Program-made: the position numbers and the translations under genes | Shown: positions 1 through 59,929 of the stretch, one piece after another | Position numbering within the stretch: position 1 is the first letter of the stretch | How the letters are laid out: each line of letters opens with the position of its first letter | Source: Owenia fusiformis | Lineage: Eukaryota; Annelida; Polychaeta; Sabellida; Oweniidae | Length of the DNA stretch: 64,000 nt | Assembly (NCBI GenBank): GCA_903813345.2 | Contig: CAIIXF020000012.1 | Location: 29,152,684-29,216,683, forward strand | Direction of reading: 5' to 3' | The notes under the pieces: generated by a model | The model's database searches: none | Told to the model about the DNA's origin: nothing | Seen by the model: the letters and a program-made list of their open reading frames with translations, nothing else

Positions 1-822
1 AAAATGTACCACATTGTCTTTTTTGATTTAATCCCATTAAGAGAGGCATTGACATGTTTAACGAGTGACAGGAAAACTTACTATTTAGAGCTTAGACTTA
101 TATTGCTCTGAAAATGCTGAGGGGATGGAAATATGTGTAATAACATGAACATAAATGTCAACATGTGACATTAATGTTAACATGTGACATTAATGTTAAC
201 ACTTGACATTAATGTCAACACTTGACGTTTATGTAAACTGACCCTCTCGAGGCCATACATGTTTTAATATGACATAACTTTATTCTACAACATATCAATT
301 ATGATCTGTATGGCAACCGTAAGGCGGCCGTAACTTCCTAAAGTCAAAATAAATGCACAGCATAAAACGATGTAGATTTTCTATATCGATTTTGTGAAGT
401 TACGCCATCACAGAGCAAATGTAACAGAGACTTAATGAGGCTACTGACCTAACAATTATTTTTAAATAACATGAACTCAATTTTTGAAGAAATAGCAACA
501 TTTTAATGTTTGATAATTTTACCTGAGGTTTTATTCCTTTACAAAAATATTATATTATATATTAATTATTATTTCATTATATATATCAATTTCATAATAT
601 TTGCTCTCTCTTCAAATTCATAAGAATTTTCTACAAATCACTTTATTCTTTATCATTTCATATATTTTATCAAAGGAAACCTTATGTGTTTTATATTCCT
701 GTAGATATAAATGTGGATATTCATACATATTGTATTTCTTATTTGGGAGAATTTAAAAACATTTTTGCACTCTACGTAAATCTTAAATAACTTTTAAATT
801 TGAAATCTTTTTGAGATATATA
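1..822. other. AT-rich non-coding stretch
   Basis: No gene seen on either strand. On the minus strand this would be intron or flank of the gene described below. The only structure noted is the 19-bp tandem repeat at 157-232, listed separately. A splice-like 26-base stretch near 92-117 has good signals but its reading phase does not fit the neighbouring candidate exon, so it is not called. Confidence 0.6.
157..232. repeat. 19-bp tandem repeat, four units
   Basis: Four adjacent 19-base units, consensus GTTAACATGTGACATTAAT, starting at 157, 176, 195 and 214. The last two units carry ACACTTGAC in place of ACATGTGAC. It is a short local duplication with no coding meaning. Confidence 0.9.
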
Positions 823-1000
823 CAGTAAAACTTGTGTATAGTGAACATTTTTTTGCCAAGAAAAAACGTTCACTGTAGGTAGGTGTTCACTAGAGAGAGG
901 GTAATTTATACAGAAGTCAGTGGACTATGTGCGTAGGAAGGGTGTCCACTAGGGACAGGTGTTCACTAGAGAGAGGTGTTCATTAAGACAGGTTTTACTG
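823..1000. mobile_element. TA-flanked MITE, Tc1/mariner-pogo type
   Basis: A 178-bp element with inverted ends CAGTAAAACTTG and CAGGTTTTACTG, flanked by TA on both sides (821-822 and 1001-1002). Inside are repeats of a GTTCACTAGAGAGAGG theme. The TA target duplication and CAGT termini fit non-autonomous members of the Tc1/mariner-pogo superfamily; there is no transposase. Relatives occur at 10563, 28570 and 33392. Confidence 0.8.
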
Positions 1001-1026
1001 TAGATGGCTTAGTGGCACTTGTACAT

Positions 1027-1130
1027 ACAGTGAACACCTCTAGAGCCACAAGAATGTATTCACTATAGGTAGGTGTTCACTACAGAGAGGTGGTTTTATA
1101 CTGAAGTCGTGGAGTAAGTGCTGAGAATGG
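1027..1130. mobile_element. Partial second copy of the TA-flanked MITE
   Basis: Just to the right of the element at 823-1000 the same internal themes recur (GTGAACACCTCTAGAG, TAGGTGTTCACTA, then TTTATACTGAAGTCGTGG, compare TTTATACAGAAGTCAGTGG near 906). One terminus is missing, so it is a fragment or a local duplication. Confidence 0.6.
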
Positions 1131-2401
1131 ATGTTTCTGATAGACATACGGACGTAATGACGGAGGGACAAACAGGCACCTGCATGCCTAAACAATCATC
1201 AACATTATCTATGACAATACGACATTTTGAAAAAGTGCCACAAAAATTTAACATATTGGGAATAATGAAACACCACATTTAACTTAAAATGACAACCAGC
1301 TTGATCACAAAACAATACAAATCTGGCAATGAATAATTCATGATAAAAATGTAACATGACATACCCACATTTCTCTAATCAATGAATTCATTCGAGTAAC
1401 TTTTATTGATTTTTAATAATAAAATATTTCATAAGTAATTTATTTAGTAGGTTGCTGGATCACTACATGTTTCCACTTGCGAATTGATAAAGGTAGTCTA
1501 TGCCTTAGGTTTCTGCCCGGACAATCAGTAATATCCCATTATACGAAAAATTCATCAGAATATATTGAAAAATAAAAAAATTAGAGAGTTATTATGAGAA
1601 CTTTATGATATACCCTCGTAATTGCTTATATAATATCTTACATAGCTTAGATATATCTTGAGACCATGTTTAGTATTGCTGATATATTATTGAGAAAATC
1701 GACAGAACAACCAACTGTCAGAATTGAACACAATTAAGTTTGACAATATTGCAGGCTACCTTTGACATACTGTATCTGATGGGTGGACCAATATGTAGAA
1801 GTGGCTGATTGCAATGATTTACAAAATGACCTCGAAACAAAGGTAGATTCAAACAATGTACCTGTCCATTATCATAATAAATAAATGACATCTATGGTAG
1901 CAGTGTCCTTAAATGACTGGAATTCTCTTTAAAAGTACATTTCTAGAAACAAGGCATTAAGTTTTTAATTTTTTATGGAAGATGGTACAGGGTGAGCCAA
2001 AAAGGTAACCCAAACAATTCTTGATAACTCAGTCATCCTGTATGGTTTTAAAGTCATATTTGGCATATATGAACTTTTGAAAATGGTATACTAAAACAAA
2101 TGTCATAAATATATTTTCTTATTTGCGGAGTTATCTTATAAATGGAACACATCCTCAACATTTTAACAGTTTCTATTAAATGTATTATGCTTCATTTCAT
2201 AAAATAAACAATAAAAATAAAATATTGTATAATTACAACGATAAACTAACACAAACAATTAATAGCAAAAAGGTCATGATGACATTAAACATATGTGTGA
2301 AATATAGTCCATTTTTTAAAACAATCCAAATTTTAAAATAAAACATATCACTACTGTATATTGGTATTATTTTGCTTCATAATAGAGTTCAATCTACTAG
2401 T
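1131..2401. other. Non-coding, no feature recognised
   Basis: AT-rich sequence without a convincing open frame or repeat border. The longest minus-strand frame here overlaps the MITE fragment and is not supported as coding. Confidence 0.5.
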
Positions 2402-3920
2402 TTAAAGGCAGAATCAGATCTATAGGGGGAGGGTTGACAGAATTGCAAGCAACGTGTACAACTGAACTACCAAGCGTTTTCTTGCAAACTCAGATACAAT
2501 AATCCCCAAAAGATTTGTGATTGTTACAAATTGGTGAGTTAACTGAGGATTCAAAGTTTAAAAATGGGGGGGGGGGAAATATACTCCTCAAAAAAAGTTA
2601 AGGACCTCATAGGTTTACATGTTAACCCCCATATTTGTTTAACGACTGTTTTCTAAGCGGGGAACAAAAGAAATCCCAATAAAGTAAATAAATCTGTATC
2701 TTGATTCTATTCCCTGTAAAGTCCGCAACGTTTCAATGTTATATCTCCATTACATTCTGTCAAAATTTCATGAAATGTAACAAAAATGGCAAATCCCATG
2801 TTAAACAAATTAGGAATGGTGGCTTAGGGGCAACTCCGATTTTGGAATATCTATTCAGCAAAACATTTATTAAAAATACTTTCTAAGTAGAAAATTAAAT
2901 GATTTTACATTTTACATGCTAAATGTCTCGCTTATGTTGTTAAAATTTGCGATACGGAGCGTTAAAGTAATTTTGACCACCTCACTGAACCACCTGTGTT
3001 ATTTCAATAAGAGGTTCATTAAAAAATTATTGAATTTGAAACTATTAACTTTTGTAAAGCCTGGACAATTAAATCATATTTTTGTCGAGTAGACAATTTA
3101 GCAAATTTAATTATCTCTTACAATCTCAATTTTGAGAGCAATCGGATGGATGGATCGTTCCTCATATGACTTATGGCAACCCAACCATTCACCATTTGTT
3201 TAACATGGAATCTGCCATTTTTGTTAAATTTCATGAAATTCATCAATTTTGACATCAAATTTTGACCCAATGTAATGGAGATATAACATTGAAACGTTGC
3301 GGACTTTATAGTGAATAGAATCAAGATACAGATTTATTTTCTTTATTGGGATTTCTTTTGTTCCCTGCTTAGAAAACAGTCGTTAAACACATATGGGGGT
3401 TAACATGTAAACCTATGAGGTCCTTAACTTTTTTTGAGGAGTATAGTTAATTCTCCCAAATAACTAGAATTTAAAGATTGCAAGTAATATAAAGGAGACC
3501 CTGTAGGCATTTTTGACAATTTGAAGGTCAGCAAAAGGTCAAATCTCAAAAGGTCAAATCTCAAGCCGAAGGTCATGTTAGAACTCAACGAAACTTGTAA
3601 ATGATGTTTAAAAAAAGATTTGTTAAAATTGATCCAAGTTGAAATTTGGTCTTAAAACATTTTACTGAGGATTCAAAATGCTAAAATGGGGGAAAATAGT
3701 AAATTCTCCCAAATAATAAAAAAAATGGTAACCATATTTATAGAAATATAATCATAGTAAAAATCTTTAGTTTTCCAAAGCATGTACTTGACAAGGATGA
3801 TCTGAGCCATAACTATTCTAAAATTTAAACAACTCTTTGTCTAGCTTGCTTTCTAGATTTGATTCTCTCTTTAATGTTTCTATGTTATATAATTTAGTAT
3901 ATGTATTTGTAATAGAGATT
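2402..3920. repeat. Old dispersed repeat, homologous to 34992-35420
   Basis: Short blocks here (AATCAGATCTATAGGG near 2411, TGAGGATTCAAAGTT near 2542, GGTAACCATATTTATAG near 3727) recur in the same order at 34992-35420. The left copy has been split by the TA-flanked element at 2584-3441 and is bordered on the right by the Ngaro element at 3921. Part of the motif set occurs twice within it (near 2540 and 3662). Divergence is high, so this is an old family of unknown type. Confidence 0.6.
2584..3441. mobile_element. Long-TIR element with TA duplication
   Basis: An 858-bp element with inverted ends of about 250 bp, beginning CTCCTCAAAAAAAGTTAAGG and ending with its complement, flanked by TA (2582-2583, 3442-3443). 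The arms share, for example, CAACGTTTCAATGTTATATC. Small open frames in the two arms translate to similar peptides because the arms are inverted copies; they are not genes. TA duplication suggests a Tc1/mariner-type non-autonomous element. Confidence 0.85.
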
Positions 3921-4216
3921 TAAAAGTAATTTAAGGAATCTGCAAGTGGACCTTAAATGGATTTATACCGACTGGCCGGATATCCAATCATGTACTGGCT
4001 TTCACTTTCAGTTATACACGTGTGTCTCGAGTTACATCTTGGGTCTATCTACTACTTCCTAGCTAGACAGCATCCTTCATTCAGTTTCATGTTTCGAAAC
4101 AGACAACATAAATAAGCATTGATTTGTTAAAAAAATTATTGTTTCAACTTTACAAGCTATTCAGCATTGTTATATTAAGAAAATATTATATAACATAAGA
4201 AAGAACACTATTTATA
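3921..4216 (+). repeat. Ngaro split repeat A1
   Basis: Left terminal repeat of 296 bases, identical by eye to A2 at 6634-6929. It starts TAAAAGTAATTTAAGG and ends CACTATTTATA. In this family the outer A and B ends are thought to be joined through a circular intermediate by the recombinase. Confidence 0.9.
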
Positions 4217-4404
4217 TACAATTTATAACATATTTTTACTTTACGAACTTATAAGTTAATAAATACACAGTTTGTGGATTGAATTCGATCATTTACCAAA
4301 TTCCATAGTGGACAGGACTCGGAAGGAGGATATAAATCTCTTCACCATCTAAAGCGATATCTATTAAACCCTGTGAGTATCTGTTCCTTTATACATTTTG
4401 TAAC

Positions 4405-5480
4405 ATGGATGGATTATCAGCAATGCTAATTGGACATTCCTTTGTTAGGCGCTTTAAGAATTATGTTCGCACAACTGAAGACAAACGCGTTAAATGGAAT
4501 CTTGGGCTAGAACGCATTCATATTAGATATGACGGTTTGGGCGGTAGAAAAGTAGGGACAATATTGAATGAAACATTGGAAAATAAATTAAAAAATCCGC
4601 CACACTTATGTTATGCTGGCCTGTAAATGAACTTTTAGTTAGTGCACTTAATGCTACTCAAGCTGGTCTTATCAGCTAGTGAGTGACGTCACTGCTAGGA
4701 TTTCCCACCATATGGCCTAATGCTTACACAGAAACTCTTTGGTATCTAAAATGTGTGATCATCTTAAAAATAGTATTACAGCTTGTAATTAATACTGAGT
4801 TGGGTCTTGAAATTAACACTTTGTGAAAGTACTACCCCTTCCTCTAATGTTTCCAGGGTTTCTCTTAATTTGAGTGAAAGTTTATCAGATTAAAGCACCT
4901 TGATGACAGGCTGGTTAGTTCATAAATGTATTCTCTCTGAACATTCTGGCAACTTGAACATTCAATCTCTCAAAATTGCAGGAAGGGATCAACTTGATTC
5001 AAAATTGTTCATTTAGAGAATTGTCTTGCCTATGCAGGATTGAAATAATTGTTTTGATCCCTTCCTGCAAACGCCCCCCAGACATATTTTACTAAGACTA
5101 CCCCCAAAATTGGGAAACCCTAATCCTAGTTACATCTCACAAGCAAGTGGCTGTCTTTTAATAGCAACCAAATCCCAGCAATGTTAAAAAGGTCAAGTTA
5201 CACATTAGCGCTTTAGTGGTAGTCAGCTATGCAGGCTTTGTTTACATTCTGCAGCAGCTGATAGCAGGTCACCGGCTTTTCCTAAACTAAAAGATCACTG
5301 CTTAACATAAGTGGCCAAACATAGTCATCTTACAAATTGGAGGAAATGATATCTCAAACGGAAAAAGACCCGAAACAGTTGCCTCCGATATAGAAAATCT
5401 AGTCATGAAATTACACCAAGAATATCACGTCGAATATATTTTAGTATCTGAACTTATACAAAGATTGCCCTGTCTCACTT
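4405..5480 (+). pseudogene. SGNH hydrolase remains within the Ngaro element
   Basis: The translated start MLIGHSFVRRF matches the first block of SGNH/GDSL hydrolases (G-H/D-S), and further right LQIGGNDIS resembles the G-x-N-D block. SGNH-type hydrolases are known accessory domains of Ngaro elements. The coding region is not intact, and it is treated as a fossil part of the element. Confidence 0.7.
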
Positions 5481-5498
5481 CTTAAAAATTACCTCACC

Positions 5499-5765
5499 TT
5501 GAGGGGTATGTCAGAAGGCCCGCTGTTTTTGCAATCAAACACAACACAAGTCCACAGAGACAGCTTCAGCAAATGGTTAAGAAAAGCCCTGACATTCATG
5601 AATCTTGATACAAAGTTTTATAAGACACATTCCTTCAGAATTGGTTCGGCTACTCACGCGTGTATAAACAAAGGTCTTACGGATCAGCAAATAATGCACC
5701 TAGGGAGATGGGCATCAAACAGTTTTAAAAAATACATAAGACCTCAAATTAATTCAGCAATGTAA
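5499..5765 (+). pseudogene. Tyrosine recombinase C-terminal remains (Ngaro)
   Basis: The translation contains HSFRIGSATHA (the H-x-x-R box), then GLTDQQIMHLGRW and SFKKYIRP with the nucleophile tyrosine position. This is the typical C-terminal catalytic half of the tyrosine recombinases of DIRS/Ngaro and Crypton elements. The split direct repeats around it favour Ngaro over Crypton. Only the C-terminal part is visible. Confidence 0.8.
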
Positions 5766-6389
5766 TTCATAAATAGCCTGAGGTGTTGCCCAAGCTATCA
5801 ACTTATCACTATCGAATCATGATTTATGAATCATAATTTAAATTAGACGGTTGGCACATGCATGCACTCTTGAAATAAGTGGGCAAGGAAATTCAAGTAT
5901 GATTGAATTGGTTGATACCAGATGAGAGCCCCTTTTATCATTTATTAGGATATGACATCAAATTAAAATGGTGTTTTCAGAGCTGTTGGCCTGGAATCTA
6001 GTACGTTTGACAAACATTAAATGAATATTACCTTTCCCAGAGCAGTTGGCCTGGGAAGTCTATGGTTCCTGTATATAGTGTAAACACATAGCTAGCAACG
6101 AATTAGTTTTAGCAAGGGTGAACGTGACCGAGGATTTCGGGATCCTTCGGAAATTTAAAACTCCCTGGAGTTTGAGCTGATGGCCAATCTCTAAAGTTAA
6201 AAACATACGCATATTAGAAGAATAATAAGAATAATTCTCGTAATTCTCACAAAACAAATTCATTGTATTTTAAAACTCATACAGCTAATTTTTCTTCACA
6301 GACGGCGCATGTCTTGAAAATTAATGTTAATGTGTTTTTCATGGTCTTTGGCCACACAAACATGATAACTCATGTTATTAGTGCCCAGT

Positions 6390-6637
6390 GGCTTTTTAGC
6401 GTCCATTTCAAACATTATGTAAGGTTATGTAATACTTTATACAATTATGTAAGACAATGTAAACGAATTTATACTATTGTTAATTTGTGTAATATTATGT
6501 AATGTTAGGAAATTGATTATGTAATGTTTTTATGTAAAAATAATAAATCAAAATAGATGGCCACAGGATGGCTCTTGACACACCAAATTATACTTGTCAG
6601 TTTATTATTTCCCGATAGAGCGGGCGGGAAGTATAAA
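6390..6637 (+). repeat. Ngaro split repeat B1
   Basis: A 248-base repeat identical by eye to B2 at 7142-7389, from GGCTTTTTAGCGTCC to GCGGGAAGTATAAA. It abuts and slightly overlaps A2; the B1-A2 junction shares the short core TAAA, as expected of the circle junction in this family. Confidence 0.9.
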
Positions 6638-6929
6638 AGTAATTTAAGGAATCTGCAAGTGGACCTTAAATGGATTTATACCGACTGGCCGGATATCCAA
6701 TCATGTACTGGCTTTCACTTTCAGTTATACACGTGTGTCTCGAGTTACATCTTGGGTCTATCTACTACTTCCTAGCTAGACAGCATCCTTCATTCAGTTT
6801 CATGTTTCGAAACAGACAACATAAATAAGCATTGATTTGTTAAAAAAATTATTGTTTCAACTTTACAAGCTATTCAGCATTGTTATATTAAGAAAATATT
6901 ATATAACATAAGAAAGAACACTATTTATA
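6634..6929 (+). repeat. Ngaro split repeat A2
   Basis: Internal copy of A1, identical by eye over 296 bases. It is followed by about 210 bases not found elsewhere in the window (6930-7141), then B2. Confidence 0.9.
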
Positions 6930-7141
6930 ACCCTCCTCCTTTCCCCGATTCTACCTCCAATAACACAAATGTATTATTGTTGAAATTCACGTTGTTTTAG
7001 TTTACAGACTGTAATTAACTATGTCACGTTTTTCGCAAACCTATTTGAGAAAGAGACTTTCACATAGCTGTCACCATGTGTTAGTAAGCTTGTACAGTCC
7101 TAACTAACCTTTTTTATATTTTTTATTTTACATTAGGTTAC

Positions 7142-7389
7142 GGCTTTTTAGCGTCCATTTCAAACATTATGTAAGGTTATGTAATACTTTATACAATTAT
7201 GTAAGACAATGTAAACGAATTTATACTATTGTTAATTTGTGTAATATTATGTAATGTTAGGAAATTGATTATGTAATGTTTTTATGTAAAAATAATAAAT
7301 CAAAATAGATGGCCACAGGATGGCTCTTGACACACCAAATTATACTTGTCAGTTTATTATTTCCCGATAGAGCGGGCGGGAAGTATAAA
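7142..7389 (+). repeat. Ngaro split repeat B2
   Basis: Right terminal repeat, identical by eye to B1. It ends at the TAAA core; the flank continues TGTTCATATTTTGCC, which is not part of the element. Confidence 0.9.
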
Positions 7390-7984
7390 TGTTCATATTT
7401 TGCCTACCAAAAAACAAGTTGATAGGTTTTACATACAGATTCAGCCTACATGAAATAAATGTAGCAATCCGTTACAGATATCAACTGGTGGTGTTACAGA
7501 TGCCAACTCTGATGAATGCTAGACACAAAAAATAGTGCCTACATGTTTAACAACATGTCACCATGGAAACATAATAAAAAGCATATTACATATTAAAGCC
7601 TTATGTTACAATTCATCATCAAAGAATTACATCATTATTTTAGTATAAATGACATTTATTAAGAGTAGTCTCAGTCTAGATAGACATTTAGTTCATACTC
7701 TGAGGCCTAAAAATGACTTTACGATAATGTGTATATTTTTTATATTAAATGAGATCATAATGCTTTATAATCAAACAAAAAAAAGCTAGAAAACATTTTG
7801 ATCCCCATGTTAGGTAGTAAGAGAGTAGGGGATTAAAAGACAGTTTCACATGTATCTCCCAAACTGAACAATGCTATTTTATCTATACTGTATTCCAAAT
7901 GGTTACATGTACCTTATCAACCTTCATTTGTTGTTTGTTTGACAGAATTAATAATATAGCATATCATTGTTGGTAATTACATGC
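7390..7984. other. Non-coding, traces of a dispersed repeat
   Basis: No gene. Between about 7470 and 7560 there are degenerate traces (GTTACAGATGCCAACT, AACATGTCACCATGG) of the repeat family whose core is CATGCAAAATGTCACCAC, seen better at 8469, 10930, 14298 and 22850. Confidence 0.5.
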
Positions 7985-8220
7985 CAACCTCCTAAGCAGG
8001 TATCCAGAATTCGTACCTCCTTCCTTCCCCTGCTATAACCAAATTTGGAAGCGCCCGATTAAACTGAATCACGTGATCTAATTATGCGCTATGACTTATA
8101 CATGATTTCTCTCGCAACCAATCAGATTGCGAGTTCTTAATCTGGGAAATGCTAACTGCTTATCGCAGGGGGTAAAAAGAAAGAACATATTCTGGATTTT
8201 TAAGCCCTGTGATCGGAGAA
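7985..8220 (+). mobile_element. hAT-like MITE, copy 1 (degenerate ends)
   Basis: About 236 bases closely matching the copies at 10600-10847 and 36578-36825 (shared: GATCTAATTATGCGC, ACTTATACATGATTTCT, CAGATTGCGAGTTCTTAATC). Its outermost bases have decayed and I see no clear target duplication. It lies about 45 bases from the candidate exon at 8264-8323. Confidence 0.8.
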
Positions 8221-8263
8221 AAAAAATAAATAAAAAGAAAAAAAAACTATTAAGAGCACATAC

Positions 8264-8323
8264 CTGGTTTATCCAGATGAGATGTTTCTGTAACCGTAGC
8301 AACTGATGATTCATCGTTTGATT
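8264..8323 (-). CDS. Candidate 60-base internal exon of the large gene
   Basis: On the minus strand a pyrimidine-rich acceptor TTTGTTTATTTACAG precedes 60 bases and a donor CAG/GTATGTGC follows. Entered in phase 1 the exon is open and leaves in phase 1, which matches the exit phase of the exon at 38491-38775. It would encode roughly ESNDESSVATVTETSHLDKP, serine/threonine-rich and acidic like its neighbour. The intron separating them would be about 30 kb, so other exons may be missing. The frame also runs past the acceptor and donor, which on its own is not evidence. Assignment to the same gene is inference from strand, phase and composition. Confidence 0.5.
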
Positions 8324-38490: not shown

Positions 38491-38775
38491 CATTTAGTTC
38501 AATCTCCTCCTCACTTGTAGCAAGGTCTTTATCCATGAAATCTTCTTCATCTTCAGTGAAATCCATCACACCCTCATCCACATCTTCATTGTCACTGTTG
38601 ACTGTCACAATTTTCGAGATTTCAGTCTCATTACGGACAATGTTATCCAACAGTCCCTCCTCCTCTCCTTCACTAGTATTTGCCTCCTTAGCATTAGATT
38701 TTACAGTAGTAGTGGTGTCTGTAGAGGTTACGTTGCTACAGGACACAGTCGGCATATAACATGGTCTTCGGCCAC
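38491..38775 (-). CDS. Acidic internal exon of the large gene
   Basis: A 285-base exon. Acceptor TTTCTCCTCAG/GTGGCC and donor AATG/GTAAGTAC are both strong. The phase-1 exit of the giant exon joins exactly to the open frame here (reading ...RTGGRRPCYMPTVSCSN...), and the exon leaves in phase 1. It encodes 95 residues of serine-, threonine- and acid-rich sequence, ending DFTEDEEDFMDKDLATSEEE. KIVTVNSDNEDVDE has the form of a SUMO-interacting motif (hydrophobic core followed by acidic residues); this is inference. The DFTEDEED stretch echoes DFSDEDN at the end of the giant exon. Confidence 0.8.
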
Positions 38776-39212: not shown

Positions 39213-42200
39213 CTGTTCTAATTTTCTTCATCAGACCCTCTCTGATAATAGGACCTTCCAAGTTGTCTTCATCAGAAAAATCATAAACTGCTTCATTCAT
39301 GACTTCCATAAGTTTGGTTGATTGTAATCCTGCTTTGGTCTCAATACCTATTTGATCATCATCGTTTACTTTTGTTTCTCTTTCAGTTAGTTGCTCTTCT
39401 CTGTTCCCAATTTGTGTTTGCTGCAATGTTTTGTTTTTAATATCATTAGCATTTTGGGTGTTAGTACGATCACTGTCTTTATGATGAGAATGTTTCTGTT
39501 GAGAGTTAATCCCATGTTTTTTATTTGTTTGATTTAACTGAATATTGTTCCTTTTTGGTCGACCATTGTTATTTCTCATCATCTGATCTCGTAGAGAAGG
39601 GACTTCATTAGCCATAGCATGTTCAGATGGCTCTCCATTATCACTGAGCGTTCTGTGGTGTATATGTTCACGTTTCTCAACAGCAATATCTGGTATTTTA
39701 TTTCTTTGGTTCAAGTTGAAATCTTCTTGATTAAGACGAACTACCATTACTCTCATTTGCCTTGTGGCTCTTATTTTTCCATATTTCCCTGCATTGCTTC
39801 TTCTCTTAACTTTGTATTGAGTTTTTTGCTTTTTGGACTTTGACAGCTCATTCTTATCTCCATTCTTCGAGAATTTCTGTCTTAACTTTTGTTTTGCAAA
39901 GGTGATCTTTTCCTCGTATATATAATCCAGTTTGTTATAATGAACCCAATAGGGAAGACTTGGTTTATTCCTTGGCCTCAAATTGAATCGCTTGGGACTT
40001 CCCCTAACTGGTGACTTTTTTCTCTTAGTGTATTTCCTCTTTTTCCGAAGCTGTTTCACCTCATTTTGTTGAACACTTGGTTCTTCTAAGCTGATATAAT
40101 CAGGTTTCATTAGACCAGTCTCTGGACATAGCACAAGGGTATCACTTTGTAAACTCCCAACATCTTGAATTGAGATATGTGTTGGTTGTAAATCACTATC
40201 ACCATCATTGATTGTTGCATTGTCTGTTTTATTTACATATTGTGATTTAGTATCTTTGGTTCCATGTGTACATGCACCTTTAATAGATGGACTTTCACAG
40301 ACTGAGTTCCTGACATTTGACACCTTTGTTCTATCATCTGTTTTGACTGCTACATTAACTATTTTTGGCGAATCTGCATTTTCATTGGTTTGCTTGGGAT
40401 CAAGTAGATTTACGATTTCACCTTGAGGTTCACTTGCTGTTTTAGCATTCACTGCCGAACATGTTTCCTTAACACCACTTATTTCAGCATTACTGCAAAT
40501 AGCATGAGTAACATCAACTGCTTTATTCAATTTTTTCTCTGCGGAACCAACAACATTTTGATCATTTGAGAATATTTGATTAACACAGTCATCGATAAGG
40601 TGTCTGGTAAATACAGGTTTGCCTCCCAGATTAACTGCATTTTCTATCGTGCATTTCGAGTGTTGACCATAAAAACTTCTATTGATAGAATCATCATCTA
40701 CTAGAGATTTTTTGTTAAACCCGGGTTTATGTTCTGCAGTAACTTTATTTTCATGTGTCTTGTTATTTTCCCCTCTCATCATTTCATTCAGCTTACTGTC
40801 GATGAATGCTTGGACTGTTTGCACAGGTTGAATTGATTCAGCTCTTCTTTCATTAACATTTGCATGTGGTGTATGAGCCTTGACTTTTGCACCCCATTGC
40901 TTTTTAAAGTGAACATGATGATGCTTGGGTGTTTCAGGTTTTTCCTTTCTAGATAAAGTGGTAGAATTTGTAAGAGGCCTGGGATTGGGATTGATTTGGG
41001 TTGTAGAGTGTGAACCTGTGGAATTGACTTGGTGTATAGAGCTGGTATGGTACAAACTATTTTCATGGGAAGTAGTTATGGCCCTAGGAGTAGTATTGCT
41101 GGTTGAATTTGCCTGGAGTTTAGAATTTGAATCAGTTGTGAGATTTGTAATAGCTGTGTAAGTGGTGTGGTTAAGGGGCTTGGTATATGTTGTGTAAGTT
41201 GTTTTGGGTATAAAACTGGATTTTGTGATATTTGTAATAAGCCTTGCTTGATCTGGGTGATTAACACTGTTTGTGAAATTCCTCTTTGTAATATTCCTTG
41301 CTTGATCTGGTGGATTAACAATGGTTGTGAGATTTGTATTTGTAACATGGCTCACCTGATTTTGGGGACTTGCATGAACTGGTTGATTAACATTGGTTTT
41401 GAGATTTGTAAGATCTATAGGAATTGTGTGATTAGTAGTATAATTGAGATTTGCCTGACCATGACTCATCGATTTTACATGGGTTGTGAGACCTCTGATT
41501 TTTACATTGGTTGTAAGATTTGTATCTGTTATAGGATTTGTATATGTGTTGGTATGGGTAACATGATTTGTATATGCACTAGCATGGGGAATGGGCTTTG
41601 TATGAGCCTTGACATGAGCTATGGGAACTGAATTAGTGTTGGCACGGGGTATTTGATTTGTATGTACATCGAATATGGGAAATGAATGAACATTTGTATG
41701 ACCTACTTGATTTTTATGAGCATTAACATGAGGGATGGGTTTTGAATGAGTGTTGGTATGAATGACAGAATTTCTATTGTTTGTGAAATGTCCTCGAATT
41801 GTGGGGCAAATTTGGGAAACAGAATTCTGTTGAGCAACAAGGTTGGCACTGCTTGATAAACATGCATCAGTTGCATAATTGCTGACAAAGGCTATAGACT
41901 TGTTTTGTTCTGTAACACTGGTATATCCCGTTTGATGAACATTACCACTTCCACTAATCAAGTTAGAGACACTGCCACGATTTGAAAAGTCATGGTGTGG
42001 AGTTGGCCTTTTTGGTCTCATTGAACTTGTGTTTAGCACACTAGCAGAGATTCTAGGCGCATCTAATGTTGTATTGGGTTCCTCATCAGATGACAATGCA
42101 TATGTTTCATAAAATGGGACATCATATTTGAACGGTATTTTTGGTGTTATACTTTTAGAATCACTGATCAATATTTCCTTTAATGACATATCTGAGTTGG

Positions 42201-45200
42201 GAAAATTTACATGGTGATTATTTGCTTTTGGTATGATATATTCAACATGGCTCTTTGGGACATCTCCCTCTATCGACTTCTTGGAGTTGGGGGTACTTAT
42301 TTTGTCAATATGTACCTTTGATGAAATCTGTTCAGTTAGGCTGTTTGGGGGCTCCTCATTTAGAGACTTATTAGAGTTTGGATCATGTTCCTGGAGATTA
42401 TGGACTTCATGTGTTATACACTCACTGTAGGTGCTGTTAATTTCACCTTGAGGCTTATTTGAGGTTGGGGCGTTTATTAGGTCACTTTGTACCTTTTCTG
42501 TAACATCTGTTACACTTTGGTTGTTCAACATTCTCTCCTCTCCTGATATATTTGGATTTAGTACCATTATTGGGTCATTATGTTCACGATGCTTACTTCT
42601 GCTGCTGATGTGGTCACTGATTATTTCATTCTCTACTAACTTACTGGACATTGGGACATTTACTTTGTCCTTAAAAGGACTTGCACTAGCTTTTATAAAT
42701 TCATCATCTTCAGTATCATCATCTAGTGCACCTAAAGTGGAAGCCATTGAAACAATGTGTTCTGAGTCAGTTATAGCAGGTACTAATTCAGAAGTTGGTA
42801 GCTGCTCTTTGACAAACATTTCACATTCATGTTCAATGCCTGGATGGATATCCTCTTTTACAACACCTTTGTCAGATGTTTCACGATCAATGATCAAAGG
42901 AGTTTCTCTAACAGGTGACTTACTTTCAATTGTTGAAGAAACATTATCACAAAATGATGTTTCATTTTCCCTGGAAGAAGGAACACTTTGTGTGACTGTT
43001 ATCTCACTTTCATTAGTTGATGGACCAATATCTTTGTGTGATATTTCAGTACCCAATGTTGAAGAGGTACTTCTCTTATCAGATCTTTCATCTCTATCAA
43101 CTAAAGGAGAAATGGCTCTGCCGGGTATTTTAGGACAAATAGAAGAAGGAACAATCTCTTTGACATGATTATGGATTGGAGAAACCATCTCTATATCTGA
43201 TATTCTAAGGTCATTTGATGAGGCATGAATATCACTGACTGATATTTCTGGCCCAATAGATGAAGAAGCATGGCTGGACTTTTCACTAGCAAAGGTGGAG
43301 GGATCAACACCTATGTTAGATATTTCAGGACTTAAAGTTGAAGACTCGCTCTTCTTGTCAGACTCATCATCTTTATAAGCTGAAGTGGAAATGACTTTGT
43401 CAAGTATTTCATTTTCAATGGCAGACTCAACAGTATCTAAGGCATTGCAAGATGTTTCATGTTTGTAGGTACTGACTGCATCACTTGATAACCTGGAAGT
43501 AGGTTTATCAGTCTCTCTGTTATCTTCAAGATTACATGTTGAACTAACCACTTCATTCACATTAGTCTCATCAAAACCATCACTTGTAGCATCATTAGCA
43601 TTTTCCTTTGCTTCAGATTCGAGGTTCTGACTACTTATGGAATTAATGTCATCAAATTTAAGTTGTGACAATACTAATGATTCACATGGCTTACTGGCAC
43701 TGACTTTGCTGCTATCTGGAACATTTGATGGCTCTACAACTTCACATAGATTTGTACTCTCATTATCAAACAATGGTTTATCCAATGAGACTTTGGACTT
43801 TGGGTCAATAACAGTGTCAGTATCTCCTTGGTTTATACTTTCAGTAAGCTCTGTTTCATGTTTTTCTTTAGGGACAATGTCTACTGATACAATTTGATCA
43901 ATTTTGTCGCTGCTCACTCCTTTTGAATCATCAAAACATATTTCTTTGGATCCAACATGATTTCCTCGGTCAAGTGTGCTATATTTCGTATACTTCTTTA
44001 TCTCAGATTTTGATAATTTTGGAAGCACTACTTTTAGAATTGGCTGTTTGTTAGTATGATCAAAATTAATTAATAAATATGAACCTTCTTCACTTATTGG
44101 AACTTTGGAGTCAATATTATCAGACATTGAGTCCATATCAACAGATTTTAAGTCCATACCATTAGGTGTTGAGTCTATATCATCAGATTGTGAGTCCAAG
44201 TCACTTGCCTTTGAGTCCATATCATTGGGATTTGAGTCCATATCAACTGACTTTGAGTTCACATCATCAGGTTTTGAGTTCATATCATTGGACTTTGATC
44301 CAATATCACTGGACTTTGAGTTCAAATCAACAGACTTTAAGTTCATTTCATCAGACTTTGAGTATATATCATTAGGGCTTGAGTCTATATCATTAGATTT
44401 TGGCTCTATATCATTGAATTTTGAGTCAATATCACCATGATTAGAGTCCATATCATCAACCTTTGAGTCCATATCAATAGGCATTGAGTCCACATCATCA
44501 GGCTTTGCATCTATTTCAACAGAATTGAAGTCCACGTCAGGCTTTGAGTCCATATGATTGGACTTTGGCTCCATATCATTGGGTTTTGGGTCGAAATCAC
44601 CAGGCTTTAAGTCCATATCATTAATTTTTGAGTCTGTATCAACAAAATTTGAGTCTACATCAGGTTTTGATTCTATTTCACCAGGCTTTGAGTCAATATC
44701 AATATATTTGGAGTCTATATCATCAGACATGGAGTCTTTAGCAACAGACTTTGAGTTTATTTCACCAGGCTTTGAGTTCATATCATCAGGGTTTGAGTCC
44801 ATATCATTAAGTTTCGAGTCTATATCAACAAATCTCGAGTCCATATCATTGAAATGAGAAATAGTATCATTAGGCTTTGAAACTGAATCATCAGACTTTA
44901 AGTCCATTTCATTAGGCTTTGAATCAATTTCATTGTACTTTGGCTCCATATACTTGGGGTTTGAGTCCATATCACCAAGATTTGAGCCTATATTATTAAG
45001 CTTTGAGTCTATATCAACAGAATTTGAGTTTACCTCAGGCTTTAAGTCCATTTCATCTGCCTTTGAGTCTATTTCATTGGACTTTGGGTCCATATCCTTG
45101 GAGTTTGAGTCCATATCACCAGATGTTGAGTCCATACCATTAAGCTTTGAGTCCATATCAACAGAATTTGAGTTAACCTCAGGCTTTAAGTCCATTTCAT

Positions 45201-48200
45201 CTGCATGTGAGTCTATTTTATTAGACTTTGGCTCCATATCCTTGGGTTTTGAGTCCGTATCATTAAGCTTTGAGTCCATATTAACATAATTTGAGTCTAC
45301 ATCATTGGTCTTTGACTCCAAATTCTCAGTTTTTGGGTCAATATCATTCGGGTTTAAGTGCAGATTACCAGGTTTTAGTTCAATACCTCCAGGCTCTGAG
45401 TCAACATAAGCAGTTGATGATGGTGAATATGGATCATCAGACTTTAAATTCATATTACAAGGCTTTGCTCCCATAACAACAGTCTTTATATTCATATCAC
45501 CAGGCTTTATTTCCATAACATCTGTCTTTGTGTCAATACCACCAGACTTTGTTTCTATAACATATGGTGTTGTATACATATCATCAGATTTTGCCCCCAT
45601 AACATCAGTCTTTGAGTTCATATCACCAGGCTTGGAGTTTATATCACAAGGTCTTGATTCCATATCATTGGTCTCTGAATTTACACCACAAGGTCTTGAT
45701 TCCATATCACCAAGCTCTGTATCTGTGTTCATATGAGGCCTTGAGTCCCTATGAGTACTATCAGCTGTTGAGCTCATCTTTTCAGATATTAGATTCATAT
45801 CATCTAGTTCTGAGTCTTTATCACCTGGATATGGGTTCATACCAAAGGTTTGATCAGACATTGAGTCTTTATTCTCTAGCTTAGAATCATTTTCCTCTGG
45901 TTTTAATCCTGATTTTGGATCTATATCATTGGGTTCTAATCCTAATTTTGGATCTATATCATTAGATTCCAATCCTAATTTTGGATCTTTGACTTTATGT
46001 TCCAATCCGAATTTTGGAGCTATACCTTTAGGTTCCAATCCTGACTTTAAATCTCTATCATTAGGTATTAATCCAAACAGCTCAGCAAGGATATGTAACA
46101 TCATCTTTTTCCTCACAGAAGAATCCGCACTTTGGATTTCTAGGATGGATTCTAGCTCAACCAGGATTGCATCTACCTCATCCTTCAAGATGACGTCGTT
46201 CCAATGATTGGAGTAGGTCTGGTTCGCCATGGCAACTGAGGAGGGGGTCACCTGAGTGCTGTTTAATCCACATAGAGCTGGGCTTTCATTAAGGTATAAA
46301 TCATATGCTGCTTTCCGGTTGCACAAATCTGTGATGTGATTTTCAAACTCATCTTCAAGTTCAGCAAGACTATCTTCTATTTCTGATTCAACGCCGTTGG
46401 CATTAAATATTCCTTCATCATTGATATCAGCATCATTATTAACAATTTCACTGTTATTAATTTCATTAATGACAACTTTATTGTAATCATTTTTATTGAT
46501 GTCATTTTCTTCATTAGCATCACCTGGAGCACCTTTACTGAATGAACAATCTTCACTATTCTTCTTGAGATCACAACTTGGTTGAGGGCTTAAAGAGAAT
46601 ACATTTCCTTCTCTAGGTGGACAATTAAGAGGAAGAGCTCTATCTTGCTTGAGATCATCAGCTATATGCTTAGTTGCACAAAGGCATCTTTTTGAATTGC
46701 TTGTGGTTGAGGACTTTTCTAAAGGGTTATTTTTGGACTTTCCCTGTGATCTTTTAGGGTGTTTCTCTTGGGATATGTTTCTGAGCTTCTCAATGTTATT
46801 CTTGAGCCGATTGAAAGTAGCTTGTGATATACTGCTAGCATTGTCATTTTCTTCTGATCCATCTTTGAGAGTATCTATTTCTGCATCATTCAGTTTTTCA
46901 CAGAGGTTATTTCCCTTTGGTGTATCTTTGAGATTATCATTTTCTTCATCCATGAGTTGTATTTCAGAGATGTCAATTCCTTGTGATGTATCTTTGATAG
47001 TATCTTTTTCTGGTTCCTTAAAAATTTTGGAGGTGTCATTTGCTTTTAAGAGAAGTGACGCAAATATATTTCTTTCTGAATGCTTCTCTGCTGAATTACT
47101 GTTGCTTTTTTCATCATCTGTGGTAGATAGATTTATTGAAAATATATTTCTTTCATGTTTTACTTTCGTATCCTGGTGACATGGTGTCTGGGAGTTTATA
47201 TCTAGAGTTTTAGACATAGAAGTATCTCCTTTGCCTTTTTCATTCGTGTAAGTTCCATCAGCAGAAGCTAGTTGGTTTGTTTGGTAGATCACTAATTTAT
47301 CATGAACCGGTTCATTCTGTGATGGTTTTCGTCGGCGACCTGATTTCTTTGCTGATATTAATGAATGGAAAAGTTTCTTCAGTTTCTTCATCCTATCTAG
47401 TTTATCATTACCTATTAGGCTTACACCTATTGGGGTTGTCCTTGGTGATGATTGCTTCTCTTTGTTCATGCGATCAGAATTACTAAGGGCAAATTCTTCA
47501 TCTATTTTGGCCTGTTTGTTTGTATGTTCACTCAGGTCAATATCATTTTCTGACGTCTTTAATAGTTCATCTTTGTTTTGAGCATTTGGTGTATCTATCG
47601 TGCAAGTGTGCGCTGTCAGAGCATCAGTGTTCATATGTGCACCCATTTTTGGAGAACTTGCTATAAATGCTTTTGTACTTGGATAATTTGTTTTAATTGC
47701 ACCCTTTGTTGAAGCAGCCATTGATATTTGATCTACCCTTGAACAGGATCTTTCTGTAAATGTGTTTTGTTTTGTAGCAATTGTGTGTACATCCATGTTT
47801 GTAGCAGATGTTTCTAATGCATTCATGTTTGCAGCAGTTACTGTGGGTGCATTATCTTTTATGCTTGCTGCAACATTATCACTAGACATTAGTCCAACAT
47901 TACTGTCATTAATTTGGAAATTTTTATTCATGAACTTGTATTGGAGTTTGGTAAGTTTTGTAAGTGCAGGGTACAAATTAGAATGACTTGGTGCATTCAT
48001 ATTTTGTTTAAATGTTCCATCACCCTTAATGTTTTCATTTGGCTCTTTTGTTCGACTATACTCATCCAGACATTCCCCCTCATTATGTTCCTCATTATTT
48101 GAGTCACTTGTATCTTCCATGTAATCATTAGATTTCTTAAGGATTGTCATGGTTGCTCTTTTCTTATTCTTGATGCGATCATATATTGTATCATTGAGGC

Positions 48201-49545
48201 ATCTTTTTTCAGATATCTGCTGATCGCGTATGGTTCCAACACTGTGTCTTCTTTGTTTTGATACCTTCTGAGGATAAACAACTTCAACGCTTTGTCTTCT
48301 CCTTTCAAATACCTTCTGATTTGTTTGATTGTCATATCTTTTCCTTTCAACTATCTTCTGATTAGATGTTTGATCGATATATCTCTTCTCTGATGCTGAA
48401 TCATTGTTGTGTCTCTTTCCCTCAGATATTGCTTCATCAATGTGTCCTTTCCCTTCAGATATATTTTGATAAGATATTGTCCCAGCAATGTGTCTCCTCC
48501 CATCAGATGTTGTCTCATCAATGTGTCTCTTCCCTTTCGGTATTGTCTCATCAATGTGTCTCTTCCCTTCAGTTATATGTTGATAAGATATTGTCCCATC
48601 AATGTGTCTCTTCCCCTCAGATATTTTCTCATTAAATTGTCTCTTTTCAGATATTGTCCCATCTATATGTCTCTTCCCTTCAGAGTATTTCTCAGCAATG
48701 TGTCTCTTCTCATCTGATATTGCTTCATCAATGTGTCTCTTTTTCCCAGATATACTTTGATCAGTTACTGTCACATCAATGTCTCCCCTCTCAGAAATAT
48801 TAAAAACAGATCCTGTCTCAAGACTGCTCCCTTCTGACACTCGACCTTGATCTAAGTTTTCTATTGCCTTGGTGTTAATTAGAGTTTTAGATTTAGTTTT
48901 CTTCATGCTAGGTTTTTCCATAACTACACATAAATTCTCCGACATACTGACAACATCAGTCGGTTGTTTTTCTAATTTCTGCTCTTCTAAGTGTACTATA
49001 GTTTTTGCGATGACATTTCCAGCGGGTAAGATTCCATCAGCATCCCCTTTAACATCCTTTATAATACCTTTATCACATTGTGTATAAACAGTTCCTCTAT
49101 TTGTGTTATCACTGACTCTAGTCTTCTCTGCACCATGGGATTTTTCCTCCTTTACTCCACTCCCTTGGATATGTGAGGTCATACTGCCATCATTAATTTT
49201 ATATATATCACATGAACTATTCAATATTGAATTTTCATTGAGTAATACATCAGTAATACATTTATTTGAAATACCTGTACTCTTGTGCTTATCTGCTTGC
49301 ATTGTTGTATTAATAGTCACACTGGTACATGACAACTCTGAGTCAGTCTCATTGCTCCTTTGATTAACGGTGTGACGCTCAAGGCAGTTAAGCATGCTAC
49401 TAGATTGAGTATTCTGATCACGATGATTTATATTTGTTCCTTTTGAGACATGTCTTTGGTGAACAGATATGTTTTCATGGCGATGTAATCCATTCGATAC
49501 TGGTTGTAATTTGAGTGTAGATCTTTGTCGGCTCGTCTGTTCCAC
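39213..49545 (-). CDS. Giant exon of an unnamed repeat-rich protein
   Basis: A single 10,333-base exon, open throughout, encoding about 3,444 residues. It starts after the acceptor TTGTGCTTCTAG with GTGGAACAG (valine, not an initiator) and a stop lies in frame just upstream, so it is an internal exon; it leaves in phase 1 at ACAG/GTATTG. The protein is rich in Ser, Asn, Asp, Lys and Thr with few hydrophobic stretches, so probably disordered. Visible blocks: residues about 250-460, some 15 units like ISEGKRHIDGT; about 1150-1815, roughly 90 units of the seven-residue DMDSKPN type; about 2580-2800, units like HTNPIPHVNAH; a lysine-rich stretch near 3160-3260 with KRKYTKRKKSPVRG and RFNLRPRNKPSLPYW; and acidic YDFSDEDNLEGP near the end. 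Basic and acidic C-terminal parts suggest a nuclear scaffold. I do not recognise the family. Antisense frames over it are shadows. Confidence 0.85.
41150..41800 (-). repeat. Coding Asn/Thr/His repeat block
   Basis: Degenerate in-frame repeats such as AHTKPIPHASAYTNHV and TNLTTNVKIRG on the minus strand, roughly 11-residue spacing. More decayed than the other two blocks. Confidence 0.75.
44100..46080 (-). repeat. Coding 21-bp repeat block in the giant exon
   Basis: On the plus strand the phrase TTTGAGTCCATATCATTAGG recurs every 21 bases or multiples of it for almost 2 kb, encoding the seven-residue DMDSKPN unit. Units at the right end (45900-46050) are longer and encode DPKLGLEPNDI. The frame is kept through the whole block, and changes fall at certain unit positions, as expected of a translated repeat. 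Confidence 0.9.
48160..48790 (-). repeat. Coding ISEGKRHIDGT repeat block
   Basis: On the plus strand CATCAATGTGTCTCTTCCC recurs many times at spacings of 33, 42 or more bases. The encoded unit is about ISEGKRHIDGT, basic, with degenerate units to the C-terminal side (KRYIDQT, RRQSVEV, RRHSVGT). It is unrelated in sequence to the other two repeat blocks of the exon. Confidence 0.9.
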
Positions 49546-49879: not shown

Positions 49880-50681
49880 TTGGCTCACATTGTGTGAATT
49901 TTCAATTAAAGTTGGCTCATATTGTGTGGATTTCAATTAAATTTGGCTCACATTGTGTGAATTTTCAATTAAAGTTGGCTCATATTGTGTGGATTTTCAA
50001 TTAAAGTTGGCTCACATTGTGTGGATTTTCAATTAAAGTTGTCTCACATTGTGTGAATTTTCAATTAAAGTTGGCTCCCATCGTGTGATTTGTCAATTAA
50101 AGTTGGCTCACATTGTGTGAATTTTCAATTAAACTTGGCTCACATTATGTGAATTTTCAATTAAAGTTGGCTCACATTGTGTGAATTTTCAATTAAAGTT
50201 GGCCACTGTGTGAATTTTCAATTAAAGTTGGCTCACAATGTGTGAATTTTCAATTAAAGTTGGCTCATATTGTGTGGATTTTCAATTAAAGTTGGCTCAC
50301 ATTGTGTGGATTTTCAATTAAAGTTGGCTTACATTTTTGTGTGGATTTTCAATTTAAGTTGGCTCACATTGTGTGAATTTTCAATTAAAGTTGGCCACTC
50401 TGTGAATGTTCAATTAAAGTTGGCTCACATTGTGCGAATTGTCAATTAAAGTTGGCTCACATTGTGTGGATTTTCAATTAAAGTTGCCTCACATTGTGTG
50501 GATTTTCAATTAAAGTTGGCTCACATTGTGTGAATTTTCAATTAAAGTTGGCTCACATTGTGTGAATTTTCAATTAAAGTTGGCTCACATTGTGTGAATT
50601 TTCAATTAAAGTTGGCTCACATTGTGTGAATTTTCAATTAAAGTTTAAGTCGGCACATATTTTGTGAATTTTCAATTAAAG
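49880..50681. repeat. 32-bp minisatellite, about 25 units
   Basis: Tandem units of 32 bases: TTGGCTCACATTGTGTGAAT plus TTTCAATTAAAG, with a few shortened units (GGCCACTGTGTGAA) and GGATT variants. It lies in the intron just upstream of the giant exon. Confidence 0.95.
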
Positions 50682-51270
50682 CTTTCAACTTTTTCAAGAT
50701 TTATGAAACAAAATATTTGACAAATAAAGTGGTGGCTATTTTGATATTTGGCAGATATTTTCAAAAACTTCAAGACAGTATTCCTTACTTATAAACTAAA
50801 CTTTATTCACACCCTGCAATCAGAAAAAAATGGAGGGGTCAGCAGCCGATTTCTGCTGGTAAATCGCTAAATAATTGCTAAATGAATAAGTGCACTGTAT
50901 GGTGAAATGAAATGATTTTTTAACTACCACACTATGGTGTGAGATCTATTTAATAAAAAGGTGCAACGTTACCATCATTCAAAGTCGATCCTTTTTCTAT
51001 AAATCAAGCATATGGAGGTCTATGTGACCTGTTTTAAATATAACATTATCATTACAAAGTGCATGTTGTTGTTGTTTTTTAGTATAAATTACTTGCAAAA
51101 CATTGTGTTTTTTACAGAGAACAGAGGGTGGGGTAATTCTAGATAGCTTATCCCCCCCCACCCCCCTTTGTTTACTATAATTTTTTTTTTAATTTTTAAT
51201 AACATTTTCTTACTCATTTCTAAAAGCTGATATTTATGTTGTGATGTTAACTTCATTTCGAGGGTCTCAC
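50682..51270 (-). other. Probable intron, no feature recognised
   Basis: Contains a C-run near 51151-51168 and T-rich sequence. A missing small exon (phase 1 to phase 0) would have to lie here or at 49546-49879 if the splice chain is right; no convincing one was found. Confidence 0.45.
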
Positions 51271-51413
51271 CTTTACATATTGCATTTATTTTCATGTCAT
51301 GGAGACTTCCACTCGTTGATTTATGAAAGAAAGATTCATCTTTACATGCTGGTAGTGATGCACCTTTTAAAATAGATCCCACACCACTCCTTTTACAAGA
51401 TATTTTGCCAAAA
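51271..51413 (-). CDS. Candidate small upstream exon
   Basis: A 143-base open stretch with a strong donor AAAG/GTGAGACC and a weaker acceptor TTGACTACAAG. Entered in phase 2 it is the only open frame, encoding FGKISCKRSGVGSILKG, ASLPACKDESFF and so on to INAIC. The candidate exon at 52550-52583 exits in phase 2, which fits. It exits in phase 1, whereas the giant exon needs phase 0, so one exon is missing or one border is wrong. An inner acceptor AAAAG/GTGCATC at 51363 would allow direct joining to 52692. The upstream intron end is close to a Harbinger-like MITE. Confidence 0.45.
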
Positions 51414-51440
51414 CTTGTAGTCAATATTTATCCTTCTTTA

Positions 51441-59893: not shown

Positions 59894-59929
59894 CTTTCAC
59901 TGTTTCTTTCAACTTTTGGGTAATAACTG

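Follow-up and report, generated by a model that had tools for sequence, protein, structure and literature searches.

A single stretch of 10.3 kb without stop codons on the minus strand of a 64,000-nucleotide window of the annelid Owenia fusiformis raises the question whether it is a coding exon and, if so, to which gene and kind of protein it belongs. Between positions 49545 and 39213 one exon of 10,333 bases was found, i.e., 3,444 codons and one further base to the donor; the reading frame itself runs open from 49545 to a stop at 39150–39148 (3,465 codons). Since stops occur at 0.068 per codon in the rest of the window, the chance of so long an open frame is about 10^-105. The remaining five frames on the same DNA contain 110–506 stops, and the longest open run in 50 dinucleotide-Markov copies (three frames each) was at most 151 codons. 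G is distributed unevenly over the codon positions (29%, 12% and 13.5% for positions 1, 2 and 3). The open frame that an earlier note had reported from the letters alone is borne out by these values, and the splice signals which it placed at both ends are present: an acceptor, gtgcttctag/GTGGAAC, with 7.9 bits and a donor, TTAGAACAG/gtattg, with 5.5 bits (simple matrix). The giant exon is confirmed as a real coding exon. Its first 50 codons, which precede any in-frame ATG, reach 0.07 bits per codon, a value that falls inside the 5–95% range of the remaining exon and above the 95th percentile of noncoding open 50-codon runs (-0.03; 99th percentile, 0.30); by this measure an internal exon is favoured, rather than proven. 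No convincing upstream exon ending in phase 0 was detected within 26 kb (best, 14.5 bits); an exon-like stretch at 51271–51363 is unsuitable, as its end is in phase 1.

The coordinates of the features are given in Table 1. The protein is built from repeats, as had been described: the 11-residue units (residues 259–409), the heptads (1226–1806) and the T/N/H block (2585–2860) are all present, the last one weakly. A second, short 11-residue array (1169–1222) precedes the heptads, whose block keeps the reading frame from start to end. About 2,400 of the 3,444 codons belong to none of the repeat blocks. Of the C-terminal parts which had been called basic and acidic, the basic one stands (net +30, residues 3151–3300), while acidity at the exon end is slight (net -3 over 27 residues); the stronger acidic stretch (net -20 over 97 residues) belongs to the next exon. 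Synonymous bias within the repeats is mixed. For the heptads, nearest pairs gave a pS of 0.135, a pN of 0.139 and a dN/dS of 1.03, and all pairs 0.93, i.e., no bias; this gives no support for coding, since the same units in the two wrong frames yielded 1.00 and 1.12 (nearest pairs) and 0.54 and 1.02 (all pairs). For the 11-residue units dN/dS was 0.57 (nearest pairs) and 0.53 (all pairs), in the true frame only, without a wrong-frame control.

Table 1. Features of the giant exon and of the gene model that continues from it; negative positions lie outside the window.
Feature	Window position	Contig position	Strand	Details
Giant internal coding exon	39213..49545	C12:29191896-29202228	-	phase in 0, phase out 1
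Degenerate 11-residue repeats, ISEGKRHIDGT type, residues 259-409	48319..48771		-	12 units by pattern
Short 11-residue-unit array, GLEPNDIDPKS type, residues 1169-1222	45880..46041		-	
Acidic heptads, NDMDSKP type, residues 1226-1806	44128..45870		-	54 units by pattern
T/N/H-rich block, residues 2585-2860	40966..41793		-	weak periodicity, degenerate
Basic region, residues 3151-3300	39646..40095		-	net +30, clustered K/R; candidate nuclear localisation signal, pattern only
Acidic next exon, 285 bases	38491..38775		-	phase 1 to 1; acceptor 10.9, donor 10.1 bits
60-base exon	8264..8323		-	phase 1 to 1; acceptor 8.2, donor 10.3 bits; exon score 25.6
Intron sequence	1..8263		-	gene model goes on outside window
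Model exon	-7097 to -7469	C12:29145214-29145586	-	
Model exon	-9983 to -10201	C12:29142482-29142700	-	
Model exon	-17508 to -18682	C12:29134001-29135175	-	
Second giant exon, 4.8 kb		C12:29114542-29119346	-	
Last two exons		C12:29114067-29114195 and 29113589-29113627	-	carry MYND finger

Searches with the exon itself returned little. The whole giant exon matched none of the Pfam families at E values up to 10, and its two PDB matches, to Alba (E 0.018) and a guanine nucleotide exchange protein (E 0.96), were not believed; on this point, the lack of a recognisable domain in the exon, the earlier note was right. The second giant exon had no PDB match up to E 1. Pfam searches with eight other pieces gave nothing over the cut-off; the second giant exon had a weak match to DUF6092 (E 0.01, 16.5 bits, cut-off 28.7), the piece 38492–38773 one to TCAD2 (E 0.25) and the piece 51092–51427 one to LOR (E 0.077). 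Rfam and tRNA searches of the window were negative. Searches for COX1 and for mollusc haemocyanin, aimed at the phylum of the animal, were negative as well, the second one being without positive control. No second copy of the giant exon was found in the 498-Mb genome: one half of it returned itself and 10 low-scoring rows (5 inside the same exon), the other half itself and 12 (1 inside the same exon), and the 1,631-codon frame holding the second giant exon returned itself only. Five loci among the 16 outside rows (L021, L027, L028, L029, L030) turned out to be tandem-repeat arrays and not relatives. One of them, L029, also holds a coiled-coil-like frame.

In the gene model, eight more exons on the same strand join the giant exon in one frame of 17,418 bases (5,805 residues) with a single stop, at its end, over a span of 88.6 kb. 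Splice and codon scoring, with no rule on phase, recovered the exons at 38775–38491 and 8323–8264, the three exons between -7097 and -18682 and the 4.8-kb frame; the acceptor of the MYND exon was recovered in the same way, but with 18.1 bits only and with a different donor, and the final junction was placed by eye. Seven junction phases agree, for which the chance is 1 in 3^7, or 1 in 2,187 (calculated post hoc). In 20 Markov copies made of this span, which contain no repeats of the minisatellite kind, no exon-like segment reached 22 bits, versus 25.6 bits for 8264–8323. A segment at -22297 to -22360 with 20.2 bits was excluded from the model; chance alone would give 0.75 segments of this sort. 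Most likely, the giant exon has an internal position close to the 5' end of a minus-strand gene with at least nine coding exons, extending over at least 88.6 kb and encoding at least 5,805 residues.

At the C terminus of the model a zf-MYND domain (PF01753) was identified with E = 1e-10 and 41.9 bits (cut-off 22.7), covering positions 1–39 of 39 of the profile; four further profiles matched there, each under its cut-off. The penultimate exon by itself scored 34.2 bits and reaches profile positions 1–29 only; thus the last exon completes the finger. All eight zinc ligands of the C4-C2HC type are present (C5768, C5771, C5779, C5782, C5788, C5792, H5800, C5804), with steps of 3-8-3-6-4-8-4, as in DEAF-1. 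Among solved structures, CBFA2T1/ETO, ZMYND10 and DEAF-1 are the closest relatives. The co-repressor-binding residues of DEAF-1 that were compared (M512, E514, T516, Q529, W533) have the equivalents T5776, L5778, S5780, Q5793 and W5797, two of five being identical to DEAF-1 and three of five to ETO; Gln5793 and Trp5797 correspond to the co-repressor-contact residues Gln529 and Trp533. The profile of the ZMYND8/ZMYND11 fingers (PF24324) remained below its cut-off (15.7 versus 27 bits). The earlier note had not recognised the protein of the giant exon; this exon is probably only part of a larger gene which ends in a MYND finger about 78 kb further, outside the window.

A common transcript of the giant exon and the MYND exons is suggested by the joined frame; the link between them consists of a 30-kb intron, the 60-base exon and a 15-kb intron. 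Only two phases bear on this join (1 in 9 by chance). Alternatively, there could be two neighbours on the same strand, a giant-exon gene ending at or soon after 38491–38775 and a separate MYND gene starting at about -7 kb, the giant protein then being without any recognised domain. The 45 kb between the two exon sets, in which the small exon 8264–8323 is the only convincing one and the only exon of the model, would agree with such an arrangement, as would an in-frame ATG about 20 codons into the first exon of the second set. We consider it unlikely, since the 60-base exon is flanked by strong sites and has the right phase at either end, the phases match across the gap, and the best in-phase terminal exon between 38480 and 8330 scores 17.3 (next, 13.6; without donor term, thus on a scale different from that of internal exons) and is a minisatellite frame. 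The open frame of this minisatellite, 19981–19642, has an exon score of 28.5 in the wrong phase (0 to 1), which indicates that the score is fallible on repeats; with an acceptor at 19977 the phase fits (1 to 1) and the score is 23.5.

Other identities appear much less probable. Repeat-built giant internal exons are known in cytoskeletal or neuronal scaffold genes, and a relative of MAP1/Futsch or the ankyrins might come to mind; this is very unlikely, because the giant exon has no Pfam match, no MAP1 or ankyrin domain was found in the scanned flanking exons of the model, and the sole MAP1B-domain match in the genome (C10:3072569-3073378, E 9e-84) is on another contig, which refutes MAP1 as the identity. 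Still less can be said for a centromere or kinetochore protein of the CENP-C or KNL1 type. The basic part of the giant exon holds SPKRFNLRPRNKPSLPYWVHYNKLDY, which by eye looks like the CENP-C motif, but the basic stretch matched two unrelated chains in the PDB (E 0.63 and 1.6) and, in Pfam, no family of such kind (one weak bacterial match, E 0.09); the model ends in a MYND finger instead of a cupin, and the CENP-C cupin was absent from a whole-genome search, which had non-animal control genomes and may be too weak. The idea, taken from the motif RFNLRPRNKPSLPYW, found no support in the cupin, PDB or Pfam searches. A decaying or neutral frame, i.e., a satellite expansion in a gene without protein function, would be in line with a heptad dN/dS near 1 and with the open frames of 145–222 codons in other minisatellites of the window, but is hardly credible in view of the codons outside the repeats, of the very low chance (about 10^-105) of so long an open frame, of the high codon scores along the exon, and of splice sites and downstream exons in phase.

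Most likely, the giant exon belongs to the early part of a MYND adaptor gene, since the downstream exons join it in frame and end in zf-MYND. The product would be almost wholly disordered, judging from its composition. In charge-hydropathy analysis of the whole model, 90 of 114 windows were on the disordered and 24 on the ordered side. Single-sequence structure predictions gave a mean pLDDT of 48 (pTM 0.28) for residues 1040–1175 and of 60 (pTM 0.17) for residues 3130–3290. A published study (PMC9825244) reports an enrichment of long internal exons in nuclear genes and in disorder.

A slight preference is given here to one gene whose giant product would be a mostly disordered adaptor of the nucleus, with a C-terminal MYND finger that would recruit co-repressors; nuclear location and recruitment are both predicted. 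MYND proteins serve as adaptors which bring co-repressors to chromatin. The protein would most likely act as a tethering hub: the finger would dock on proline-leucine motifs in subunits of co-repressors or remodellers (of the SMRT/NCoR or GATAD2A type), and the long N-terminal half, full of repeats and with a basic patch, would give reach and allow many weak contacts with chromatin or other factors. The matches to PLNLS (PxDLS-like), NLS-like and SIM-like motifs are short patterns of the kind that a sequence of 5,805 residues yields by chance; the gene model itself contains no PPxL-type or LxxLL match. It is conceivable, although rather doubtful, that an undescribed class of giant chromatin hub is represented, with more than 5,800 residues, mostly from two giant exons, in which, as far as it was read, the C-terminal MYND finger is the only folded module recognised; the N-terminal 11-residue and heptad arrays would vary almost freely in length and sequence, with frame and composition being kept, and would serve co-repressor complexes as a tunable tether. 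If true, this would be a natural test of very long disordered tethers in gene silencing, and of whether selection on such exons keeps only length, charge and frame. A featureless giant exon became assignable once the gene was followed outside the window.

Known giant-exon scaffolds (the giant exons of ankyrin-B/G, MAP1/Futsch, the N2 exons of titin) share with the model one very long internal exon and a disordered, repeat-rich protein, but no ankyrin, MAP1 or titin domain was found in the scanned model exons. Open-access literature on giant exons and intrinsic disorder led to ankyrins, that on MYND and giant, intrinsically disordered proteins included titin among the matches listed, and that on MYND and mollusc gene family expansion led to Smyd genes; on bivalve uncharacterized zinc finger MYND proteins nothing was obtained. 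ZMYND8 and ZMYND11 likewise have a C-terminal MYND finger, whereas no PHD, bromo or PWWP domain was found in the scanned exons. Gln1051 and Trp1055 of ZMYND8 are reported to bind the PPPL motif of GATAD2A (PMC13196413); the Gln and Trp are four residues apart, as in the model, a comparison based on two of four contact residues. DEAF-1 and ETO/CBFA2T (MTG) contain SAND, TAF or NHR domains, of which none was detected in the scanned exons, but have in common with the model a MYND finger that lies at the C terminus or close to it, and the Gln and Trp of the co-repressor groove. The MYND proteins known to us are of ordinary size; the model has about ten times the length of DEAF-1 and is built on two giant, apparently disordered exons.

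On the minus strand, a reading frame is open from 49545 down to a stop codon at 39150–39148, and a GT donor after 39213 sets the 3' limit of an exon of 10,333 bases (the giant exon). Stops occur in the window at a rate of 0.068 per codon, so that 3,444 codons would stay open with a chance of about 10^-105; the longest open run in 50 Markov copies was 151 codons, each of the remaining five frames contains 110–506 stops over the exon, and composition differs strongly between codon positions. The acceptor, gtgcttctag/GTGG, whose TAG doubles as the stop closing the frame upstream, scored 7.9 bits and the donor 5.5 bits with a simple splice matrix. Both the long open frame and the splice signals at its ends, as described in the earlier note, were thus confirmed. 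Codon 51 is the first ATG in frame. Since the 50 codons ahead of it contain no stop (chance 3%) and show a coding-type score (between the 95th and 99th percentiles for open noncoding runs), the exon is most likely internal, as had been claimed, and would continue an upstream coding exon ending in phase 0; within 26 kb, however, no convincing exon of this kind was found.

The repeat-built character of the protein holds for the 11-mers and heptads, but the third block is only weakly periodic. The reading frame is intact over all repeat units, including changes of unit spacing by one residue (three bases). Values of dN/dS were 0.53–0.57 for the 11-mers and 0.93–1.03 for the heptads. In the heptads synonymous change was not in excess, and strong constraint on their sequence is not favoured. 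A wrong-frame control on the heptads reached down to 0.54; therefore, the repeats are no proof of coding.

For the gene model, 180 kb beyond the window (C12:29152684-29216683, assembly size 498 Mb) were taken in addition, 100 kb on its lower side and 80 kb on its upper side. Exon-like segments were scored from their splice sites and codon usage, with no rule on phase, in the 40 kb adjoining either side and, separately, in the remaining flank. When only the two giant exons were used to train the codon model, none of 20 Markov copies of the span gave a segment of at least 22 bits; the plus strand gave one (22.5 bits), inside a frame which is LINE-like by eye. From the giant exon onward the phases run 0-1, 1-1, 1-1, 1-2, 2-2, 2-1 and 1-0; the next exon has a starting phase of 0 and the sequence GNLVLMSESDIVAGSKMCSICGREATFLCSGCKKMWYCSIKCQ; the last, of 39 bases, reads MAAWEKHCSECC followed by a stop. 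The phase-free list contained the MYND exon's acceptor, with only 18.1 bits and paired with another donor; the donor used in the model and the last exon were placed by eye. Joined, the nine exons comprise 17,418 bases and span 88,640 bases of genome; they encode 5,805 residues, with a single, terminal stop.

Features in and around the window (coordinates count from window base 1 and are converted to C12 positions by adding 29152683, unless stated otherwise; exon-like segments listed for the minus strand, at least 22 bits, from the giant exon to -39.2 kb)
Feature	Position	Strand	Remarks
11-residue units	residues 259-409	-	
Short 11-residue array	residues 1169-1222	-	
Heptads, NDMDSKP type	residues 1226-1806	-	
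T/N/H-rich part	residues 2585-2860	-	weakly periodic
Exon-like segment	38775-38491	-	≥22 bits; in phase
Exon-like segment	19981-19642	-	≥22 bits; 33-base minisatellite; outside phase chain
Exon-like segment	8323-8264	-	≥22 bits; in phase
Exon-like segment	-7097 to -7469	-	≥22 bits; in phase
Exon-like segment	-9983 to -10201	-	≥22 bits; in phase
Exon-like segment	-17508 to -18682	-	≥22 bits; in phase
Second giant exon (4.8-kb frame)	-33337 to -38141	-	pieces ≥22 bits; in phase
MYND exon, match in the genome-wide search	C12:29114064-29114144	-	34.2 bits for its part of the profile alone
Recombinase-like frame	5445-5762	+	Phage_integrase, E 0.0004, 20.6 bits (cut-off 27.1)
Neighbouring frame	4336-4623	+	Pfam blank
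Minisatellite	17590-18277		
Minisatellite	19352-19852		
Minisatellite	49880-50645		
Minisatellite	54686-55034		
Minisatellite	57575-59903		
Tandem array	11653-12711		176-base unit x 6.0, 97% matches
Tandem array	23146-23840		142-base unit x 4.9, 91% matches
Retroelement frame	81748-86685	-	
Retroelement frame	-53355 to -49275	-	
Retroelement frame	121135-126896	+	
TRIM-like frame	-55655 to -53922	+	RING + B-box, by eye
TRIM-like frame	-89807 to -88128	+	RING + B-box, by eye
Two adjoining frames	-94675 to -93576	-	like broken mariner-type transposase, by eye
Giant frame on another contig	C1 ~27165614-27174463		3,549 codons; includes search locus L028

The minisatellites near 17.6–18.3 and 19.4–19.9 kb contain open frames of 145–222 codons and can mimic exons. 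The tyrosine-recombinase-like frame is probably a mobile-element remnant. Retroelement frames flank the gene on both sides and are, by eye, of zinc-knuckle, endonuclease and reverse-transcriptase type, with a protease-like stretch in one; the two long TRIM-like frames are mutually similar.

From the segment following the giant exon to the MYND half, a distance of 45 kb holds one exon of 60 bases. If this step is wrong, the giant exon would be part of a shorter gene with no known domain, next to a separate MYND gene. Seven junctions have boundaries from phase-free scans and would by chance agree in phase in 1 of 2,187 cases; this agreement was noticed post hoc. That the giant exon and the MYND half are one gene is considered quite probable; this grading, like that of the proposed function, is a judgement rather than a computed value. 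MAP1, one look-alike with a giant exon, was rejected, since it sits elsewhere in the genome. No second copy of the giant exon was found in the genome; the giant frame on contig C1, which in the part examined carries PAEITTG-type heptads and there matched the Pfam profile Fez1 (40.7 bits) and, more weakly, coiled-coil-type profiles, appears unrelated as far as seen.

The protein had been called unrecognised, which stands for the giant exon itself (no Pfam match with E up to 10; two weak matches in a PDB sequence search) but not for the joined model, which ends in a zf-MYND domain (E = 1e-10, whole profile covered). Structure prediction from single sequences gave low-confidence folds for two candidate ordered islands. 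As for the suggested check for disorder, composition and charge-hydropathy of the gene model, with 90 of 114 windows on the disordered side and 24 against, fit a disordered protein. The MYND domain itself is known; an architecture in which two giant exons encode disordered residues by the thousand ahead of a C-terminal MYND finger was unmatched in Pfam, PDB and the literature searched, and the same protein may carry an unnamed annotation in eukaryotic protein databases.

We propose that the C-terminal finger would hold a co-repressor or remodeller subunit, and the very long disordered part with its basic patch would bind chromatin or other factors and give reach. A nuclear MYND giant recruiting partners, taken as a whole, is somewhat favoured; any particular partner would be less certain. 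PMC9825244 reports an enrichment for nuclear annotation among genes with internal exons of more than 720 bases, in the four species examined for this, and a rise of encoded disorder with exon length in eight species; these trends fit the proposed nuclear disordered protein.

A genome-wide search detected MYND domains at no fewer than 25 places, the exon of the model among them. The nearest solved chains to its finger were ETO/CBFA2T1, ZMYND10 and DEAF-1, and the spacing of all eight zinc ligands is exactly that of DEAF-1. Of the five MYND residues named for co-repressor binding in PMC3555993, Gln and Trp are kept, whereas the other three differ. In ZMYND8, according to PMC13196413, a Gln and a Trp bind PPPL motifs of GATAD2A, and their spacing is the same in the model's finger, which supports a recruiter function by analogy only.
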